From Pseudomonas chlororaphis subsp. aurantiaca (GTDB lineage Bacteria; Pseudomonadota; Gammaproteobacteria; Pseudomonadales; Pseudomonadaceae), in contig NZ_CP059162.1 in NCBI RefSeq assembly GCF_013466605.1, positions 6,634,001 through 6,698,000 on the forward strand: DNA of 64,000 nucleotides, read 5' to 3'. Numbering within the stretch: position 1 is the first letter of the stretch; each line of letters starts with the position of its first letter. The notes under the pieces were generated by a model. That model worked only from the letters and a program-made list of their open reading frames with translations, made no database searches and was not told the origin of the DNA. The position numbers and the translations under genes are program-made. This document shows, piece after piece, positions 9,544 through 18,373 of this stretch.

Positions 9544-9613
9544 ATCCCCGCCCGCCAATTGACTATAGACAGTGCGTGATACACTGCCCGCCATTGTTTT
9601 CAGGACACCTCCC

Positions 9614-9874
9614 ATGCTCGCGCCCAAAGACCTCCTCGATGCCCTGAGCGGCCATGCCGCCCGCCTGTTCAGCGGCGATACCCCACTGCCCCGCGCCGAA
9701 ATCGAAAGCCAGTTCAAGGCCCTGCTGCAAAGCGGCTTCAGCAAGCTGGACCTGGTCAGCCGGGAAGAATTCGACAGCCAGATGGTCGTCCTGGCCCGTA
9801 CCCGCGCCCGCCTGGAAAGCCTGGAGGCGAAGGTCGCCGAGCTGGAAGCCAAGCTCAACCCGAGCGAGCAGTAA
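9614..9874 (+). CDS. ubiK: Ubiquinone biosynthesis accessory factor UbiK (BMFP/YqiC family)
   Basis: UbiK is a small membrane-associated coiled-coil protein that assists the Ubi enzyme complex, forming a trimer and interacting with UbiJ. The 86-residue product begins MLAPKDLLDALSGHAARLF and ends in a heptad-rich coiled coil (ARLESLEAKVAELEAKL), which is the BMFP signature. The longer open frame starting 42 bases upstream was rejected because the family N-terminus is at this ATG. It is the last core gene before the accessory operon. Confidence 0.9.
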   Translation: MLAPKDLLDALSGHAARLFSGDTPLPRAEIESQFKALLQSGFSKLDLVSREEFDSQMVVLARTRARLESLEAKVAELEAKLNPSEQ

Positions 9875-10095: not shown

Positions 10096-11157
10096 ATGAC
10101 CGCGCCAAAACCCTTCAGCCGCTTGGCCTTCTTCGTTCATACCGCCGAGATGCTCAATCACTATCAGGCGGTCTGGAGCCTGCTGGGGGCCGATGCTTTC
10201 GACGTGGTCCTGCATGGCACCCATGAAGAGCGCGCGCAAAGCCGCGAACTGATCGGCGGCCTGGGTTACAGCTGCCACGGCAGCCTGGATGTGATCAAGG
10301 CCAATCACCGCTATGACGTGGTGGTCTCCAACCACAGCATGTACGACCATGGCTCGCAGCCGATGATCAAGGCGCTGGGCCATCGGCAGGTGCGCTTCAT
10401 GTACGCCCTGGGCAAGTACAAACACAACTTTTCCAGCTGGAACCGGCACTACGACCTGATCCTGTGTTTCGGCCCCTGGCAGGCCGAGCGTCTGCGCGAA
10501 TGCTGCGACGCCGTGACCTTCCAGATGGGCTACCCGCGCTACGACGCCTACTTCCGCGAAACCTCGCGGCAAGGCCAGCATCCGACGGACCTGGGCCTGG
10601 ACCCGACGAAAAAGACCGTGCTGTGGCTGCCGACCTGGATGGAGCTGTCGTCGATCAACCGCTTCGCCGACGCCATGGCCGGGTTGTGCGAGCGCTACAA
10701 CGTCATCGTGAAGACCCATCCGCTGTCGGCGGAGGCCGATCCCGAGGCGCTGAAACTGCTTGAGCAATACCCGTTCACCGCGGTGATTACCCGCGTCTAC
10801 GACAACCTCACCCTGTTCCGTTGCGCCGACTATGTGGTTTCGGACTACGGCGGAACCGCGTTCGGCGCCCTGTACCTGGACAAGAACCTGCTGCTGTTGA
10901 ATGTACCGGACGCCGAGCAGGATGCGCTGACCGGCGAGGAGTCGCCCGATGTGCTGCTGCGCAACGACATCGTCAACCTCGACCCCGAGGCACGCTGGCA
11001 ACTGGCCGACCTGCTGGGGGATGAAAGCCTCTGGCAACAGCAGGCCGCGGTCCGCCAGCGTCTGCGTCGCCATTACTTCGCTCCCAGCTATGGTTTCTCG
11101 GCGGAGCTGGCGGTCCTGGCGCTGCGCAACATCGAAAACATACTCAAGCAGGGGTGA
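10096..11157 (+). CDS. CDP-glycerol glycerophosphotransferase-like protein (TagF/TagB family)
   Basis: First gene of the seven-gene accessory operon; 353 residues. The C-terminal half resembles the CDP-glycerol:poly(glycerophosphate) glycerophosphotransferase family: KKTVLWLPTWMELSS, VIVKTHPL and CADYVVSDYGGTAFGALYLDK correspond to the nucleotide-binding and catalytic segments (TagF has DYSS where this has DYGG). TagF enzymes move a phosphoglycerol from CDP-glycerol to an acceptor and release CMP. No signal peptide or membrane helix is seen. The ATG beginning MTAPKPFS has AGGTAG upstream; the open frame upstream of it is Pro-rich non-coding sequence. Given the CDP-phosphoramidate genes downstream, a role as the terminal phosphoramidate (or phosphoglycerol) transferase is possible, but this is inference. 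Confidence 0.72.
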   Translation: MTAPKPFSRLAFFVHTAEMLNHYQAVWSLLGADAFDVVLHGTHEERAQSRELIGGLGYSCHGSLDVIKANHRYDVVVSNHSMYDHGSQPMIKALGHRQVRFMYALGKYKHNFSSWNRHYDLILCFGPWQAERLRECCDAVTFQMGYPRYDAYFRETSRQGQHPTDLGLDPTKKTVLWLPTWMELSSINRFADAMAGLCERYNVIVKTHPLSAEADPEALKLLEQYPFTAVITRVYDNLTLFRCADYVVSDYGGTAFGALYLDKNLLLLNVPDAEQDALTGEESPDVLLRNDIVNLDPEARWQLADLLGDESLWQQQAAVRQRLRRHYFAPSYGFSAELAVLALRNIENILKQG

Positions 11158-11161
11158 AACC

Positions 11162-11689
11162 ATGGTGATCTGGCTGGTCGGCATGTCAGGAGCAGGCAAA
11201 ACCACGATCGGCCGGGCCCTGTATGCCAGCCTGAAAGCGCAACGGCCGCAGACCGTGTTCGTCGACGGCGACGAGATTCGCGCGCTGTTCCGCCATGACC
11301 AGCGGGCGGACGCCTACAGCGTTGCCGGACGCCGGGTCAACGCCGAGCGGATCCAGGCCCTGTGTGGCTGGCTCGATGGCCAGGGCATCGATGTGGTCTG
11401 CTGCATCCTGTCGATGTTCCAGGACATCAGCGACGACAACCGCCAGCGTTTCTCCAGCTACCGGGAAGTGTTCGTCGATGTGCCGCTGAGCACCCTGATC
11501 AGCCGTGACAACAAGGGGCTGTATCAGTCCGCCCTGCGGGGCGAGCAGAGCAATGTGGTGGGCGTGGACATCGAATACCCGCCGCCACAATGCCCGGACC
11601 TGGTGCTGCATAACCGTCACGAGCCCGACGATATTCCTGGCTACGTGGACCGCATTCGCCAGCTCTGTGGGTATCCACCGTCATGCTGA
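11162..11689 (+). CDS. APS-kinase-fold protein, probable cytidine diphosphoramidate kinase
   Basis: A 175-residue P-loop kinase of the adenylylsulfate-kinase family: Walker A GMSGAGKTT (about residues 7 to 15), FVDGDEIRALF, RVNAERIQALC, and REVFVDVPLSTLISRDNKGLY. By homology alone it would be called CysC. In C. jejuni, however, the same fold next to three partner genes (Cj1415) phosphorylates the 3' hydroxyl of cytidine diphosphoramidate, and all three partners are downstream here. No sulfate-assimilation genes are nearby. It starts four bases after the previous gene and its stop overlaps the next start (ATGCTGA). The APS-kinase fold is secure; the substrate is inferred from context. Confidence 0.8.
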   Translation: MVIWLVGMSGAGKTTIGRALYASLKAQRPQTVFVDGDEIRALFRHDQRADAYSVAGRRVNAERIQALCGWLDGQGIDVVCCILSMFQDISDDNRQRFSSYREVFVDVPLSTLISRDNKGLYQSALRGEQSNVVGVDIEYPPPQCPDLVLHNRHEPDDIPGYVDRIRQLCGYPPSC

Positions 11690-12255
11690 ACTACACCTAC
11701 AGCGACGGGGACCTGCTGGAAAACCCGCAGACCTACCGTTACAGCAGCTTCCAGGGCGAAGCCTTAGTCGATGCCTGGCGCACCTCGCGCCTGGCTGTGT
11801 GCGCCCACTTGCCGACGCCGGCCTTGCCCACGCTGCATCCACAAGGCCCGGCGCACGCCGCGGACAGCACGGCGCTGCTGAGCCACCTGTGCCTGGAAAT
11901 GCGCGCGGGCGCCGGAGTCTCCGGCCCGCTGGCGGCCTACTGGCTGCCGCGCCTGCTGAAGAAATTCGAAGTGAGCAAACGCCTGTATACCGGCTACGAA
12001 GCCGCGGCTCCGCACCGTCCGCTGCCCTACGGCAGCTATGGGTCCGTACCGCCTTACCTACTGCTGGCCGAGTGCATGCTGCACGGCTGGCAGGCAAGCG
12101 GCGCGGCCTATTACCTCAGTGGCCTGCTCAAGCTGACGGACACCCTGGTGTCGCAGCAGGGCCGCCTCGACCCGGACCAGGGCGCCTACCTGGCCTGGCT
12201 GCTGACCCAGGAACAACAGGTGCTGGCCACAGTCGCCCGGGAGGCCGGCCTATGA
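11683..12255 (+). CDS. Unrecognised protein of the phosphoramidate operon
   Basis: A 190-residue protein that matches no family I recognise. It has no signal peptide or clear membrane helix. The N-terminal third is Tyr/Ser-rich (MLNYTYSDGDLLENPQTYRY) and Ala/Pro-rich; the rest looks helical, with LLSHLCLEMRAGAG, YWLPRLLKKFEVSKRLYTGY, LPYGSYGSVPPYLLLAECM and LLTQEQQVLATVAREAG. Aromatics and glycines cluster around residues 100 to 145. It overlaps the kinase gene before it by seven bases and the formyltransferase-like gene after it by four (ATGA), so it is made as part of the same operon. Its codon use and GC content look like its neighbours. Confidence 0.8.
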   Translation: MLNYTYSDGDLLENPQTYRYSSFQGEALVDAWRTSRLAVCAHLPTPALPTLHPQGPAHAADSTALLSHLCLEMRAGAGVSGPLAAYWLPRLLKKFEVSKRLYTGYEAAAPHRPLPYGSYGSVPPYLLLAECMLHGWQASGAAYYLSGLLKLTDTLVSQQGRLDPDQGAYLAWLLTQEQQVLATVAREAGL

Positions 12256-12980
12256 GTCGCGCCCGCCTGCTGATCCTCTGCGCCCGCACCGCGCGCTCGG
12301 TCGCCTACCTGCAAGGCATGGCGGCAGCCGGTATCGAACCTGACGCGGTGATTGTCTATGGCCAGGGCGGCGGCGCGTTGCAAACCACCCGCGAGTTGCA
12401 GGTACAGCCACTCGCGGGACTGTTCTGCCCGGACCTGAACCAGGACATCGACACTTGCCTGGCCACCCTGGACTGGCCCCACGAGGTATGCCCGGCCCAG
12501 GCTCTCGACGACCCGCAGTTGCTCGCGCTTATCGCACGCCAGGCACCGGACCTGCTGGTCTACTCTGGGTACGGCGGGCAACTGGTGCCGGCGGCCCTGT
12601 TGAGTCGTTACCCGGTGCTGCATATCCACTCCGGCTGGCTGCCGGATTATCGCGGCAGCACCACCCTGTACTACCAGATCATCGAACAGCGCGAGTGCGC
12701 CGCCAGCGCCCTGCTGCTCGACGAGCAGATCGACACCGGCCCGGTGCTGGCGCGCAAGGCTTATCCGCTGCCGCCGCCAGGCATGGACGTCGACTACCTG
12801 TATGACAACGCGATCCGCGCCGACCTGCTGGTGCAAGTCCTTGGCCACTGGCGTCGCGAAGGCGCCCAGGCCCTGCGGCCCCTGCCGGCCGAGGCCGAGA
12901 AACCGCCGTACTTCATCATTCACCCGCTGCTCAAGCACCTGGCCCTGCTGGCGGTGGACAAGCACGAGGACGCGCCATGA
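12252..12980 (+). CDS. Formyltransferase-fold protein with altered active-site motif
   Basis: A 242-residue protein of the formyl-transferase N-terminal family (PurN, Fmt, ArnA-type), which normally moves a formyl group from 10-formyl-tetrahydrofolate to an amine. The core motif reads VLHIHSGWLPDYRGSTTLYY: the catalytic His and the LPxYRG loop are kept, but the usual Asn two residues before that His is replaced by His. The later Asp is present in LLLDEQIDTGPVL. There is no Fmt-type C-terminal domain. It overlaps genes on both sides by four bases. A formyl transfer to an amine in the operon product is plausible; loss of the Asn leaves activity uncertain. Confidence 0.78.
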   Translation: MSRARLLILCARTARSVAYLQGMAAAGIEPDAVIVYGQGGGALQTTRELQVQPLAGLFCPDLNQDIDTCLATLDWPHEVCPAQALDDPQLLALIARQAPDLLVYSGYGGQLVPAALLSRYPVLHIHSGWLPDYRGSTTLYYQIIEQRECAASALLLDEQIDTGPVLARKAYPLPPPGMDVDYLYDNAIRADLLVQVLGHWRREGAQALRPLPAEAEKPPYFIIHPLLKHLALLAVDKHEDAP

Positions 12981-15376
12981 ACCAGGCCGCCGCGAACACC
13001 ATTCGTTTCGGGACCAAGTCCGAAACCCTGGAGCGCCTGCAGCTGCGGGTCACCCGCTCGCGGATCCTGCCGCTGTACTTCTTCACCGCGCGGCAGTGGC
13101 TTGATGCCCCAGCGGACGTGCTGCAGAACATCGCCAGGATAGAGCATGGCGGTTGCGTGATCGTGCGCAGCAGCGCGCAGAACGAAGACAGCTTCAACAG
13201 CTCTATGGCCGGCCTGTTCACCAGTTGCCTGAACGTCAGCGCCACGGATCCACGGGCCCTAAACGCGGCCATCGAACAGGTGATTGCGTCCTTCGCCGAG
13301 CACCGCTGCGAGGACAACCAGGTCCTGGTCCAGCCGATGCTGACCTCGATCCAGATGAGCGGCGTGGTGATGACCCACGACCTGGAGCATGGCGCCCCTT
13401 ACTACGTGGTGAACTACGACGACGAGAGCGGCCTGACCGATACCATCACCGGCGGCCAGGGCATCCAGAAAACCGTGCTGGTCTACCGTGACACCGAGAG
13501 CCCCCAGTTGCGCTCCCCACGCCTGCAGGCGGTGATCGATGCCTGCCGGGAGCTGGAAATGCTCTGCGGTAACGTGCCGCTGGACATCGAGTTCGCCGTC
13601 GACCGCCACCAGCAGGTGTATGTGCTGCAGGTGCGGCGCATCACCCTGTGCAACACCTGGCATCCGGTCACCGAACGGCGGGTGGCGCGCCAGCTCGAGC
13701 ACATCCAGCGCTTCCTGGGCAAACGCCTGGCGCCCCAGGCCGGCCTGTATGGCGACAGCACCCTGCTGGGGGTGATGCCCGACTGGAACCCGGCGGAAAT
13801 CATCGGTACCACTCCGCGCCCGCTGGCGGCCTCGTTGTATCGGCGCCTGGTGACCGATTCGACCTGGCGCGAAGCCCGCGCCCTGATGGGCTATCACCAC
13901 CCGCGGCACCAGGCGCTGATGGTGATGCTCGGCCATCACCCGTATATCGACGTGCGCTGCAGCTTCAACTCGTTCCTGCCGGCAGGCCTGGAGCCGAAGT
14001 TGTGCAACAGGCTGGTCAACGCCTGGCTGCAGCGCCTGCAGGCCCACCCGCAATGGCACGACAAGGTCGAGTTCGAAGTCGTCCAGACCTGCCTGGACTT
14101 CACTTTCGATGCCGACTTCGCCGAGCGTTATGGCGACAGCCTCAGCGCCGCCGAACAAAGGGCCTATCGCACGGCCCTCGATCAGCTGACGCTGCGGGCG
14201 CTATGCAGTAACGGCGCCGGCGCGCTGCCGCCCTTGCTGGACCAGGTGCGCGCTCATGAGCGCCAGCAGCAAAGCCGCCGTCTCGACGCCATTCCAGCCG
14301 ACCTCGACAGCATCCACCGCTTGCTGCTGGACTGCCGCGAGCAAGGCACGCTGCCGTTCGCCATGCTCGCCCGGCATGCATTCATCGCCGAAGCCCTGCT
14401 GCGCTCGGCCTGCCGCCGTGGCGCCCTGAGCAACGAGCGCCTGCTGGCCTGGAAGCAGTCGATCCACACCGTCACTACCGAACTGACGCGCGAATACGCC
14501 CAGGTCTGCGCTGACGTCCGGACACTGCCGGCCTTTGTCGCCAAATTCGGCCATCTGCGCCCCGGTACTTACGACATCACCTCATTGCGTTATGACGAAC
14601 GCCACGACCTGTTCGCTGCCGCGACCGTCGAGCTGGGTCATGGCAAGAGTTCGCAAGCAGCCTTCCAACTGCAGCCTGAAGAACGCCAGGCCCTGCAGCA
14701 GTTGATCGACGAACAAGGCTGGCCGCTGTCGACCGAACACCTGCTGGACTATGCCAGCCAGGCCATCCAGGCCCGGGAATACGCCAAGCTGGTGTTCACC
14801 CGGGACCTGTCCGATGCCCTGCAACTGCTGGTGAGCTGGGGCGCCGACGTTGGCCTGGCCAGGGAAGACCTGTCCTTTCTCGATATCCACCCGCTGCTCG
14901 ACAGCCTCACCACGCCGCTAATGGACGACACCGACCGGGTCCTGCTGGAAGCGGCCAGCCAGGCGCGACGCAGTTATGAACAGGGTATCTCGCTGAAGCT
15001 CGGGCACCTGATCAGTGCGGTCGACGATGTGTTCGTCGCACCGCTGCATCGCAGCCTGCCCAACTTCATCACCCGGCAGAACGTCGAAGCCGTCGGCATG
15101 GAATTGCGTCAGGACACCCCAGCCTCGGCGCCGCTCAAGGGCAAGATCGTCTGCATCGAAAATGCCGACCCCGGCTACGACTGGGTCTTCACCCGCGGTA
15201 TCGCCGGGCTGGTCACCCAATACGGCGGGGCCAACTCGCACATGGCCATCCGCTGCGCCGAATTCGGCATTCCTGCGGCCATCGGTTGTGGCGAACAGCT
15301 GTTCAATCGAATCCTGCGCAGCCCGCGCATCGCCCTCAATTGTCGCGACAAGACCCTGAACCCGGTGCAGCCATGA
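12977..15376 (+). CDS. PEP-synthase/PPDK-like enzyme, probable L-glutamine kinase
   Basis: A 799-residue protein with the layout of PEP synthase-like kinases. The N-terminal ATP-grasp domain includes CVIVRSSAQNEDSFNSSMAG and later PLDIEFAVDR and VYVLQVRRI; a long helical middle follows; the C-terminal phosphohistidine domain contains GLVTQYGGANSHMAIRCAE then FGIPAAIGCG, with the phosphoacceptor His near residue 755. This is the architecture of Cj1418, which uses ATP to phosphorylate the side-chain amide of L-glutamine, giving AMP and phosphate. A true PEP synthase or PPDK would also have a C-terminal PEP/pyruvate TIM barrel, which is absent. It overlaps genes on both sides by four bases. With the amidotransferase and cytidylyltransferase next to it, glutamine kinase is the best call. 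Confidence 0.82.
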   Translation: MNQAAANTIRFGTKSETLERLQLRVTRSRILPLYFFTARQWLDAPADVLQNIARIEHGGCVIVRSSAQNEDSFNSSMAGLFTSCLNVSATDPRALNAAIEQVIASFAEHRCEDNQVLVQPMLTSIQMSGVVMTHDLEHGAPYYVVNYDDESGLTDTITGGQGIQKTVLVYRDTESPQLRSPRLQAVIDACRELEMLCGNVPLDIEFAVDRHQQVYVLQVRRITLCNTWHPVTERRVARQLEHIQRFLGKRLAPQAGLYGDSTLLGVMPDWNPAEIIGTTPRPLAASLYRRLVTDSTWREARALMGYHHPRHQALMVMLGHHPYIDVRCSFNSFLPAGLEPKLCNRLVNAWLQRLQAHPQWHDKVEFEVVQTCLDFTFDADFAERYGDSLSAAEQRAYRTALDQLTLRALCSNGAGALPPLLDQVRAHERQQQSRRLDAIPADLDSIHRLLLDCREQGTLPFAMLARHAFIAEALLRSACRRGALSNERLLAWKQSIHTVTTELTREYAQVCADVRTLPAFVAKFGHLRPGTYDITSLRYDERHDLFAAATVELGHGKSSQAAFQLQPEERQALQQLIDEQGWPLSTEHLLDYASQAIQAREYAKLVFTRDLSDALQLLVSWGADVGLAREDLSFLDIHPLLDSLTTPLMDDTDRVLLEAASQARRSYEQGISLKLGHLISAVDDVFVAPLHRSLPNFITRQNVEAVGMELRQDTPASAPLKGKIVCIENADPGYDWVFTRGIAGLVTQYGGANSHMAIRCAEFGIPAAIGCGEQLFNRILRSPRIALNCRDKTLNPVQP

Positions 15377-16005
15377 AACGCCTGGGCATCACCCTGAGAA
15401 CCTGCAACCCGCAGGCCTATCACGAACCGCGCGATGGCCTGGCCAGGGACTGGTACCGCTTTTTTACCGAACTCGGCTGTGGCAACCAATGGCTGCTGCT
15501 GCCCAATCTGGGCGAGGACACCGTGGCCTACGCCCAAGACCAGGGCGTGCAAGGGGTGATCTTCAGCGGTGGCGACGACCTCGGCGGCGACCCGTTGCGC
15601 GATCAGAGCGAACAGGCGCTGCTGGCCCACTGCGTGGCCGAGCGGCTGCCAGTGCTGGGGGTCTGCCGTGGATTGCAACTGATCCACAGCTTTTTCGGTG
15701 GCCGGCTGGCCGATGCCGACCGCGACGTGCACGTCGCGCAACGCCACCTCATCACCTTGCTGGCCGCCGACGAGCTGCCCTGGCTACCGGGCCAGGCCGC
15801 TTCGCGCTCGGTCAATTCCTTCCACGGCAAACAGTTGCTCGACCCGCTGCCCGCCACCCTGCGCCCCTGGGCCCTGGACGCTGCCGGGACCTGCGAGGCC
15901 CTGGTGCATACCAGCCTCAAGGTGGCCGGCATCATGTGGCATCCCGAGCGCGAAGCAGCGCTGGACGAAGCCGATCGACAACTGTGCCAATGGCTCTTTG
16001 AGTGA
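15373..16005 (+). CDS. Class I glutamine amidotransferase-like hydrolase, probable gamma-glutamyl-CDP-amidate hydrolase
   Basis: A 210-residue stand-alone class I glutamine amidotransferase domain of the gamma-Glu-GABA hydrolase group. The nucleophile elbow is PVLGVCRGLQLI (Cys near residue 98), and the His/Glu of the triad are in GIMWHPER. SGGDDLGGDP and VNSFHGKQLL are other family segments. No synthase partner is present, so it should hydrolyse a gamma-glutamyl amide. In the Cj1417 reaction it cuts CDP-L-glutamine to glutamate and cytidine diphosphoramidate; the flanking genes fit this role. Starts on the ATGA overlap with the kinase gene and ends six bases before the cytidylyltransferase. 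Confidence 0.82.
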   Translation: MKRLGITLRTCNPQAYHEPRDGLARDWYRFFTELGCGNQWLLLPNLGEDTVAYAQDQGVQGVIFSGGDDLGGDPLRDQSEQALLAHCVAERLPVLGVCRGLQLIHSFFGGRLADADRDVHVAQRHLITLLAADELPWLPGQAASRSVNSFHGKQLLDPLPATLRPWALDAAGTCEALVHTSLKVAGIMWHPEREAALDEADRQLCQWLFE

Positions 16006-16011
16006 CCTGAC

Positions 16012-16761
16012 ATGAAAGCCGTAATTCTCGCCGCCGGCCGCGGCTCCCGCCTGAAAGACCTGACCGCCGCACTACCCAAGCCCCTGACCTGCCTGGCTGG
16101 CAAGCCGCTGCTCGAATGGCAGCTGCAAGCCCTGAAAAACGCCGGGGTCGACGAGGTGCATCTGGTCAGCGGCTATTGCAGCGAAGCCCTTGAAGGCTAC
16201 GGCCAGAGCCGGCTGTACAACCCGCATTGGGCCAGCAGCAACATGGTGCGCAGCCTGATGCGCGCCGATGCCCTGCTGTCCAGCGAACCGACCCTGGTGT
16301 GCTACGGCGACATCGTCTATCGCCCGGATATCGTCCGCGACCTGATGGCCTCCCAGGCGCCCCTGAGCATCACCTACGACCTCGACTGGTGGGACCTGTG
16401 GTCGGCGCGTTTCGATGATCCCCTCAGCGATGCCGAAAGCTTCCGCCAACAGGCCGGCCGGCTACTGGGCATTGCTGAAAAGGTCGCCAGCCGCGAAGAA
16501 ATCGAGGGCCAATACATGGGCCTGCTGAAATTCACCCCCGAAGGCTGGAGCCAGGTCCGGGCGCTGCTGTCCGGCATGAGCGCCCCGCAGATCGACAAAC
16601 TGGACATGACCAGCCTGCTGCGCGCCCTGCTCCAGGCCGGCACCGCTATCGCCACCGTGGCCATTCGCGGCGGTTGGGTGGAAGTCGACAATCAGACGGA
16701 CATCGCCCTGTACGAACAACGCATCGTCCAACCGGGCTGGTCCCACGACTGGCGCGGCTAA
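16012..16761 (+). CDS. Sugar-phosphate-type nucleotidyltransferase, probable CTP:phosphoglutamine cytidylyltransferase
   Basis: A 249-residue nucleotidyltransferase with the Rossmann-like signature MKAVILAAGRGSRLKDLTAALPKPL, seen as ILAAGRGSRLKDLT then PKPL, followed by metal-binding GDIVY near residue 100 and a C-terminal GGWVEVDNQTDIA. The segment RLYNPHWASSNMVRSLM resembles Cj1416 and choline-phosphate cytidylyltransferases of the LicC type. In the C. jejuni pathway this enzyme joins CTP and phosphoglutamine to make CDP-L-glutamine. LicC-type substrates cannot be excluded by eye, but no licA, licB or licD gene is present. Last gene of the operon. Confidence 0.8.
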   Translation: MKAVILAAGRGSRLKDLTAALPKPLTCLAGKPLLEWQLQALKNAGVDEVHLVSGYCSEALEGYGQSRLYNPHWASSNMVRSLMRADALLSSEPTLVCYGDIVYRPDIVRDLMASQAPLSITYDLDWWDLWSARFDDPLSDAESFRQQAGRLLGIAEKVASREEIEGQYMGLLKFTPEGWSQVRALLSGMSAPQIDKLDMTSLLRALLQAGTAIATVAIRGGWVEVDNQTDIALYEQRIVQPGWSHDWRG

Positions 16762-16840
16762 GCCGGCCGCCGCAACATCCTGAGCCGATTTACCGGCGCG
16801 GCAGTGCCCCGGCCAGCGCACACCGGGGCTACGCTTGCAC

Positions 16841-16858
16841 AACCGCAGGATGCGGTTT
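16841..16858 (+). terminator. Possible weak terminator after the phosphoramidate operon
   Basis: AACCGCA and TGCGGTT around GGA, followed by only a short T run. A second hairpin (GCCCCGG/CCGGGGC, 16806-16829) lies just before it. Both sit between the operon and comM. Confidence 0.35.
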
Positions 16859-16879
16859 CCCAGTCTCAAGGAACGAGTC

Positions 16880-18373
16880 ATGTCTCTGGCCATTGTCCAC
16901 AGCCGTGCCCAGACCGGCGTGCAAGCGCCAGCCGTGTCGGTCGAAGTTCATCTGGCCAACGGCCTTCCGGCCCTGACCCTGGTGGGCCTGCCCGAAGCGG
17001 CGGTCAAGGAAAGCAAGGACCGGGTGCGCAGCGCCATTCTCAATGCCGGCTTCGATTTTCCGGCCCGGCGCATCACCCTCAACCTCGCCCCGGCCGACCT
17101 GCCCAAGGACGGCGGGCGCTTCGACCTGGCAATCGCCCTGGGCATACTGGCCGCCAGCGTGCAGGTGCCGACCCTGGCCCTGGAGAATGTCGAATGCCTG
17201 GGCGAGCTGGCGCTGTCCGGCGCGGTTCGTCCGGTGCGCGGCGTGCTGCCGGCGGCCCTGGCCGCGCGCCAGGCCGGACGCACGCTGATGGTGCCGCGCG
17301 CGAATGCCGAGGAAGCCTGCCTGGCGTCAGGACTGACGGTGATCGCAGTCGATCATTTACTGGAAGCCGTTGCACATTTCAACGGCCATACACCGATCGA
17401 GCCCTACGCCTCGGACGGCCTTCTCTACCAGAACCGACCCTATCCCGACCTGAATGAAGTACAGGGCCAACTGGCCGCCAAACGCGCGCTGCTGGTGGCC
17501 GCGGCCGGTGCGCACAACCTGCTGTTCAGCGGCCCTCCGGGCACCGGCAAGACCTTGCTGGCCAGCCGCCTGCCCGGCCTGTTGCCGCCGCTGGAGGAGC
17601 AGGAGGCCCTGGAAGTGGCTGCCATCCAGTCGGTCACCAGCCACATTCCCCTGAGCCATTGGCCGCAACGGCCCTTCCGTCAACCTCATCACTCGGCTTC
17701 TGGACCAGCGCTGGTGGGGGGTGGCTCGAAGCCGCAACCCGGGGAAATCACGCTTGCCCATCACGGTGTGCTGTTCCTCGATGAATTGCCGGAATTTGAT
17801 CGCAAGGTACTGGAAGTCCTGCGCGAGCCGCTGGAGTCGGGGCAGATCGTCATCGCCCGGGCCCGTGACCGGGTGCATTTTCCCGCGCGTTTCCAGCTGG
17901 TAGCGGCGATGAACCCCTGTCCCTGTGGATATCTTGGCGAGCCCAGTGGCCGCTGCCGCTGCACACCGGAGCAGATCCAGCGTTATCGCAACAAGCTCTC
18001 CGGGCCGCTGCTCGACCGTATCGACCTGCATCTGACCGTGGCCCGGGAAAGCACAGCCCTCAACCCCAAGCCACAAGCTGGGGACAACACCGCGCAAGCC
18101 GCGGCCCTGGTGGCCCGCGCCAGGGAGCGGCAACAGCAACGCCAGGGTTGCGCCAATGCTTTTCTCGACCTGCCGGGCCTGCGCCGGCATTGCCAGTTAT
18201 CCACAACCGACGAGCGCTGGCTGGAAACCGCTTGCGAACGCCTGACCCTGTCCCTGCGCGCCGCCCACCGCCTGCTCAAGGTCGCCCGCACCCTGGCGGA
18301 CCTCGAGCAGGTCGAGCAGATCAGCCGCGAGCACCTGGCCGAGGCGCTGCAATACCGGCCGGCCGCTAGCTAA
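16880..18373 (+). CDS. comM: YifB/ComM family Mg-chelatase-like AAA+ ATPase
   Basis: A 497-residue ComM/YifB protein. The N-terminal ChlI-like domain (VHSRAQTGVQAPAVSVEVHL as VHSRAQTGVQAP; GLPEAAVKESKDRVRSAI) precedes the AAA+ core: Walker A LLFSGPPGTGKTLLASRLP, Walker B VLFLDELPEF, and the zinc-type cysteines NPCPCGYLGEP with CRCTPEQ. The C-terminal part has RAAHRLLKVARTLADL. ComM is a helicase that promotes branch migration during natural transformation. The ATG beginning MSLAIVHS has AAGGAAC upstream; the longer frame runs into the intergenic hairpins. Confidence 0.93.
   Translation: MSLAIVHSRAQTGVQAPAVSVEVHLANGLPALTLVGLPEAAVKESKDRVRSAILNAGFDFPARRITLNLAPADLPKDGGRFDLAIALGILAASVQVPTLALENVECLGELALSGAVRPVRGVLPAALAARQAGRTLMVPRANAEEACLASGLTVIAVDHLLEAVAHFNGHTPIEPYASDGLLYQNRPYPDLNEVQGQLAAKRALLVAAAGAHNLLFSGPPGTGKTLLASRLPGLLPPLEEQEALEVAAIQSVTSHIPLSHWPQRPFRQPHHSASGPALVGGGSKPQPGEITLAHHGVLFLDELPEFDRKVLEVLREPLESGQIVIARARDRVHFPARFQLVAAMNPCPCGYLGEPSGRCRCTPEQIQRYRNKLSGPLLDRIDLHLTVARESTALNPKPQAGDNTAQAAALVARARERQQQRQGCANAFLDLPGLRRHCQLSTTDERWLETACERLTLSLRAAHRLLKVARTLADLEQVEQISREHLAEALQYRPAAS

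Follow-up and report, generated by a model that had tools for sequence, protein, structure and literature searches.

A Pseudomonas operon that probably makes an activated phosphoramidate and decorates a surface glycan with it

A phosphoramidate donor pathway is known from Campylobacter jejuni, where Cj1415–Cj1418 together turn glutamine, adenosine triphosphate (ATP) and cytidine triphosphate (CTP) into cytidine diphosphate (CDP)-phosphoramidate 3'-phosphate, as described in PMC11800397; the route starts by N-phosphorylating glutamine (PMC6429109). Mutation has shown Cj1421 and Cj1422 to be needed for O-methyl phosphoramidate (MeOPN) on two sugars of C. jejuni; in two papers of 2025, Cj1419 and Cj1420 are still unassigned and the enzymatic steps of decoration are left to future work. 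Xanthomonas campestris and Shewanella are reported to have unmethylated phosphoramidates in their lipopolysaccharide (LPS), as cited in PMC3907429. The subject here is an operon of seven same-strand open reading frames (ORFs), g1–g7, in a 64,000-nt stretch (the window, G000:C1:6634001-6698000) of the 6.95 Mb chromosome of Pseudomonas chlororaphis subsp. aurantiaca. It lies between two genes which, from position and family, we take to be ubiK and comM. The seven genes very probably serve to make a rare phosphorus-nitrogen (P-N) group and link it to a sugar of the cell surface.

All seven ORFs are on the forward strand, and their junctions are, in order, a 4-bp gap, a 7-bp overlap (g2/g3), three 4-bp overlaps and a 6-bp gap. 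An earlier sequence-only reading of this DNA had described a seven-gene operon with no gap or overlap above 6 bp; the operon stands, and the g2/g3 overlap exceeds the limit by one. The four enzyme families named in that reading (a kinase like phosphoenolpyruvate (PEP) synthase without its barrel, a nucleotidyltransferase, an amidotransferase and a protein of adenosine 5'-phosphosulfate (APS) kinase fold) agree with the Pfam matches. These are the families of the C. jejuni MeOPN donor pathway and, as there, their genes are adjacent. The Pseudomonas operon differs in having g1, g3 and g4 beside the core and in having no methyltransferase, the mark of a MeOPN pathway, that Pfam could find among the seven genes. 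Below, labels beginning with G are sampled genomes (G000 is the source genome) and those beginning with L are fetched loci.

The kinase, g5 (12977-15376), has a PPDK_N match of 52.9 bits and one of 48.1 bits to the PEP-utilizers mobile domain, with no PEP-barrel domain listed by Pfam at E 0.001. It scores 961.3 bits against NF004508/PRK05849, well above the cut-off of 501, although NCBI gives this family no name beyond “hypothetical protein.” The candidate phosphohistidine, H755, is kept in 25 of 25 aligned rows. The amidotransferase, g6 (15373-16005), is of the class I Peptidase_C26/GATase family, and the highest scoring of 17 NCBIfam families is NF045546, “gamma-glutamyl-CDP-amidate hydrolase,” at 100.4 bits, with the next at 43.6. 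When the window's g6 was aligned with 47 chosen relatives from kinase loci, all 48 rows matched NF045546 (best E 6.9e-38, versus 5.7e-18 for the next family), and the triad C98, H190 and E192 was identical throughout, as were R76, D77, H120, N148, S149 and H151. The nucleoside triphosphate (NTP) transferase of MurU/LicC type, g7 (16012-16761), matches NTP_transf_3 (PF12804) at 65.6 bits and, among solved structures, LicC (1jyk) at 48.3 bits, with a higher score of 55.4 for 4y7t (“Nucleotidyl transferase”). The APS-kinase-fold protein, g2 (11162-11689), matches Pfam APS_kinase at 101.5 bits and PRK05541 at 147.6 bits, above its cut-off of 127. It falls short of the APS kinase (CysC) equivalog apsK, scoring 104.8 bits against a cut-off of 138.7; the source genome has three further apsK matches above that cut-off, one with an internal stop.

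By relation to families with assayed C. jejuni members, g5 would act as a glutamine kinase, phosphorylating the amide; g7, as a phosphoglutamine cytidylyltransferase, would combine phosphoglutamine with CTP to give CDP-glutamine; g6, as a gamma-glutamyl-CDP-amidate hydrolase, would remove glutamate to leave cytidine diphosphoramidate (CDP-NH2); and g2 would add a 3'-phosphate to CDP-NH2. In C. jejuni these steps fall to Cj1418, Cj1416, Cj1417 and Cj1415, respectively. The putative phosphoramidate transferase g1 (10096-11157) may then take P-NH2 from the CDP donor and place it on a glycan hydroxyl. The products of g3 and g4 might form a two-part enzyme on the same branch, most likely for acyl or one-carbon transfer to donor or acceptor. 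With no methyltransferase in the operon, the expected phosphoramidate would, in contrast to MeOPN, lack a methyl group, and would probably be of the kind reported for X. campestris and Shewanella LPS. Taken as a whole, synthesis of an activated phosphoramidate by the operon, for decoration of a surface glycan, is likely. What is observed is the genes, their order, families and co-occurrence, with conserved residues and exchanged modules; every reaction is inferred.

The grouping of the core genes is widely kept. A profile scan of GTDB contigs found at least 539 stretches encoding a relative of the g5 kinase, and the best 80 of these were retained as named loci. Both g6 and g7 are in reach of the kinase in 70 of the 80 (g6 is found in 71, g7 in 73), with contigs that end early counted as misses among the remaining ten. 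In 56 of the 70 the three genes stand next to each other on the same strand in the order g5-g6-g7, so that chance is not a sufficient explanation. The 80 loci come from Pseudomonadota, Bacteroidota, Verrucomicrobiota, Omnitrophota, Planctomycetota, Bacillota, Desulfovibrio-type bacteria, others and three archaea. Many relatives are surrounded by polysaccharide genes, of families typed through their tested members as DegT, FdtA, NeuB, CTP_transf_3 and GT61. In a 2022 review the glutamine kinase is called C. jejuni-specific (PMC9561416); at the level of the family this fails, since relatives span many phyla, whatever their substrates. At E 1e-40 the kinase is found in 23 of 298 sampled Pseudomonas genomes and 15 of 398 sampled Pseudomonadota genomes. 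The accessory character proposed for the operon is thus borne out, with no match at this threshold in the other 275 Pseudomonas genomes, while the suggestion that P-N chemistry of this kind is rare does not fit these numbers. P-N decorated glycans may instead be common, given the number and phylogenetic spread of these loci, and overlooked through routine gene names. Such decoration may matter for phage contact too: a title in the reference list of PMC9561416 has phage F336 recognizing the capsular phosphoramidate of C. jejuni. The three archaeal contigs (L124, L125 and L129; two Woesearchaeota and one halophilic archaeon) carry kinase, amidotransferase and NTP-transferase genes.

The sequence-only reading took in the four core genes and left out g1, g3 and g4, which bear on how the donor is used; the kind of pathway it proposed is very probably correct, but its account was incomplete. 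The protein encoded by g1 matches the CDP-glycerol glycerophosphotransferase family (PF04464) at 44.5 bits, above the gathering cut-off of 22.1. This is the family of TagB, TagF and TarB, whose members use CDP-activated donors, moving phosphate groups from them; g1 differs in that no CDP-glycerol gene is found among g1–g7, and in its distance from TagF. It occurs in 17 of the 80 kinase loci, and g2, g3 and g4 are present in all 17. Related neighbors recur in other Pseudomonas kinase loci: L191 has another PF04464 protein (28.3 bits), with a look-alike at the same place in L192, and L194 has a CDP-alcohol phosphotransferase (CDP-OH_P_transf, PF01066; 56 bits). Three Pseudomonas architectures thus have a PF04464 (g1; L191) or PF01066 (L194) neighbor, both families that use CDP-activated donors. 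From its family and these recurring neighbors, g1 is likely a transferase, and the pairing provides transferases in harmless bacteria with which the transfer step can be tested. In L194 and L195 (genomes G224 and G165), the g5-g6-g7 core is accompanied by a similar ATP-grasp-like gene; the product there is perhaps a different P-N compound, even a phospholipid-like one.

The pair g3 (11683-12255) and g4 (12252-12980) is strongly linked to the core. A detectable g3 is present in 28 of 35 loci with g4 versus one of the 45 others, and g3 is fused in one ORF with g4 (L063, L068, L070, L082) or with g2 (L104, L099). In searches at E 1e-15, g4 was matched in ten of the 298 Pseudomonas genomes, eight of them strongly and two, G196 and G111, with scores near 65 bits; all ten are among the 23 kinase carriers. 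Four of the 398 Pseudomonadota genomes were matched; one (G320) was rejected as a carrier, its protein being of the ordinary N-x-H form, and the remaining three are all kinase-positive. The g3 product has no match in Pfam or NCBIfam, and belongs to a family without a name; its AlphaFold model (predicted local distance difference test, pLDDT, 94.4) is all-helical, with six helices. The g4 product matches formyltransferase PF00551 at 38.9 bits, and its model (pLDDT 89.8) confirms the formyltransferase fold (best Foldseek E 4.3e-12). With Fmt, ArnA, WbkC and QdtF it shares this fold, Asp161 and the second His; it differs from them in motifs of its own (GSTT and a C-terminal IHPxLKH), in the separate partner g3 and in the active site. 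In formyltransferases the Asn of N-x-H...D is catalytic, whereas the g4 family has His at that position in 31 of 31 rows, giving H-x-H, which is also the form of all ten Pseudomonas matches. H124, H126, D161, H224 and H229 are invariant in the same 31 rows.

For the chemistry of the pair, acyl or one-carbon transfer is a tentative guess. The pair could be a second sugar N-formyltransferase that acts on an amino sugar and has nothing to do with P-N chemistry, which would be compatible with the reading proposed for the other genes. In favor of this, g4 comes closest, in fold and among solved structures, to Fmt and sugar N-formyltransferases, and genes for amino sugars often lie nearby. However, a separate ankyrin-bearing formyltransferase already sits in the partner locus described below, the catalytic Asn is consistently replaced, and every sampled genome in which the His form was found also has the kinase (three of three Pseudomonadota, ten of ten Pseudomonas), so that this explanation is rather unlikely. 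A bolder proposal is that g3–g4 are a new class of enzyme modifying the phosphoramidate itself, for example by N-formylation or another acyl transfer to P-NH2, a decoration never described, and that the core belongs to a modular system for making P-N donors, widespread among bacteria and archaea, whose end module (methyl, g3–g4 or the SGNH-like c18) is interchangeable. This too is rather unlikely.

Three end modules do adjoin the core: g2-g3-g4, g2-c18, and g2 with the methyltransferase c6. None of g4, c18 and c6 is seen in 22 of the 80 named loci. (Each c-family was typed by Pfam from a single member.) Family c6 is found in none of the 35 loci with g4 and in 15 of the 45 others (Fisher 7e-5), and none of the eight c18 loci has g4. 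A second methyltransferase family, c14, occurs in 11 loci, six with g4 and five with c18. At least one of c6 and c14, the tested members of both being methyltransferases, is present in 26 of the 80 loci, and both families offer testable methylating enzymes. On a kinase tree (94 rows, built by a quick method with Shimodaira–Hasegawa approximate likelihood ratio test, SH-aLRT, support alone), 13 changes are needed for g4, 13 for c6 and five for c18, all forced by starred branches; each of the three labels is also clustered on the tree. Neighboring Desulfovibrionaceae kinases have c6 in one case (L081) and g4 in the other (L135), and three Pseudomonas rows of type Ib, with g1–g4, group with the Pseudomonas kinase of G175, whose locus carries c6, and lie far from the window's kinase. 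In G141, G269, G130 and G014 the g1–g4 and g5–g7 sets are in opposite orientation (in G141, g3 was not called separately). Module exchange on the tree and opposite orientations are as predicted for a donor core with exchangeable user modules.

Two of the families near these modules have their own characters. The c18 proteins (L095:14327-15580 and seven relatives) are about 420 aa long and weakly SGNH-like, with a GDS motif; they stand where g3 and g4 are missing, adjoining g2 in several loci. The x390 proteins (L174:5113-6282 and nine relatives), of about 390 aa, are encoded just upstream of g2 in ten operons of type II. Two members tested had no Pfam match, and comparison with g1 by hhalign (1%) gave no tie between the two; x390 is a candidate transferase.

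An acceptor for the decoration is suggested by a second set of genes. The g1–g7 genes of P. sp. JUb42 (L138) are directly preceded by a row of genes for a formyltransferase (pointing the other way), PhyH, two GT61 proteins, FdtA and DegT. In the source genome, PhyH, GT61, FdtA, DegT and an ankyrin-bearing formyltransferase, presumably QdtF-like, are at G000:C1:5135888-5141360, 1.5 Mb from the operon. We take FdtA, DegT and the formyltransferase to point to a dTDP-3-formamido-3,6-dideoxyhexose. At E 1e-60 the cluster's GT61 is found in just four of the 298 Pseudomonas genomes (G000, G092, G089 and G101), exactly those with the window's type of operon, and in G000 and G092 the two are unlinked; the chance of this is 3e-9 if species are assumed to be independent, which these are not. 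FdtA is present in all eight genomes with g1–g4 and in eight of 37 others examined, one marginally (Fisher 6e-5). The best reading is a two-locus system, operon and distant cluster, placing phosphoramidate on a surface glycan, with the acceptor probably the glycan that the distant cluster builds.

The same donor could instead end in a small secreted P-N natural product, with g1, g3 and g4 as tailoring enzymes. In the type IV Pseudomonas loci an ATP-grasp protein accompanies the core, joined in the one tested by a CDP-alcohol phosphotransferase, which would suit such a product, and the operon has no glycosyltransferase of its own. However, Pfam detects no peptide synthetase or exporter in the operon, many relatives are found among polysaccharide genes, and GT61 accompanies the window's operon type in four of four sampled genomes, which together make a secreted product improbable. 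Still less probable is a decoration like teichoic acid or phosphocholine, with g7 making CDP-glycerol or CDP-choline for transfer by g1 and with the kinase and amidotransferase doing unrelated chemistry: the family of g1 and the resemblance of g7 to LicC would allow it, but Pfam finds no choline or glycerol kinase among the seven genes, and g6 is nearest to a gamma-glutamyl-CDP-amidate hydrolase and, with g7, beside the kinase in those 70 of 80 loci.

Several points weigh against decoration of a surface glycan by a phosphoramidate made here. The pathway of Cj1415–Cj1418 type proposed by the sequence-only reading is upheld by the score of g5 and the nearest family of g6, but g6 falls short of the curated NF045546 cut-off of 250 bits, and is therefore a relative of the gamma-glutamyl-CDP-amidate hydrolase and not an equivalog; this cut-off was passed in none of 57 genomes checked. 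Taken alone, g7 is a generic NTP transferase, and the link to the C. jejuni proteins runs through family relation. The match of g1 to TagF (3l7i) is weak (20 bits, E=0.0027), its family profile found no relative among solved structures, and it was not found in 63 of the 80 kinase loci, so that it cannot be the general transferase. The acceptor glycan is predicted from genes. The co-occurrence probabilities overstate independence because the sampled genomes are related by descent, and the four GT61 carriers fall in one kinase clade. P. fuscovaginae (L065) has g1–g7, but its flanks, 10 kb to each side, contain a short DegT piece and neither FdtA nor GT61. Finally, a sigma-70-type promoter was looked for and none was found.

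The site between ubiK (9572-9874) and comM (16835-18373), both on the forward strand, is as the sequence-only reading described it, and the survey of this gap that it called for was run. A ubiK match is present in all 36 sampled genomes of the genus. In 18 of 30 Pseudomonas loci examined comM starts no more than 1.4 kb from ubiK. Two of the other 12 are those of the source genome and G019, and ten have comM within about 3 kb of ubiK, with no g1–g7 genes detected between them. The operon occupies the same place in P. morbosilactucae (L059), whose amtB-glnK-ubiK DNA is 90% identical to that of the source genome, and in G092. The type II Pseudomonas operon (x390-g2-c6-g5-g6-g7), found in ten genomes, immediately follows comM in six of them; operons of this kind thus occur on either side of comM. 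At that place in G019 (L193, G019:C1:6393500-6408000), g6 and g7 follow comM, with no kinase at E 1e-40 and neither g2 nor a methyltransferase detected there; the pair is a probable remnant.

Two further observations concern the kinase family. A 9540-bp sequence from feces labeled as bacteriophage and UNVERIFIED (MT837632.1, L204) has a kinase-amidotransferase ORF of 1011 aa, and is perhaps bacterial DNA. Family c17, the one tested member of which is a B12-binding radical SAM protein, is within 10 kb of the kinase in nine of the 80 named loci (L072, L080, L091, L096, L101, L123, L129, L132 and L137).

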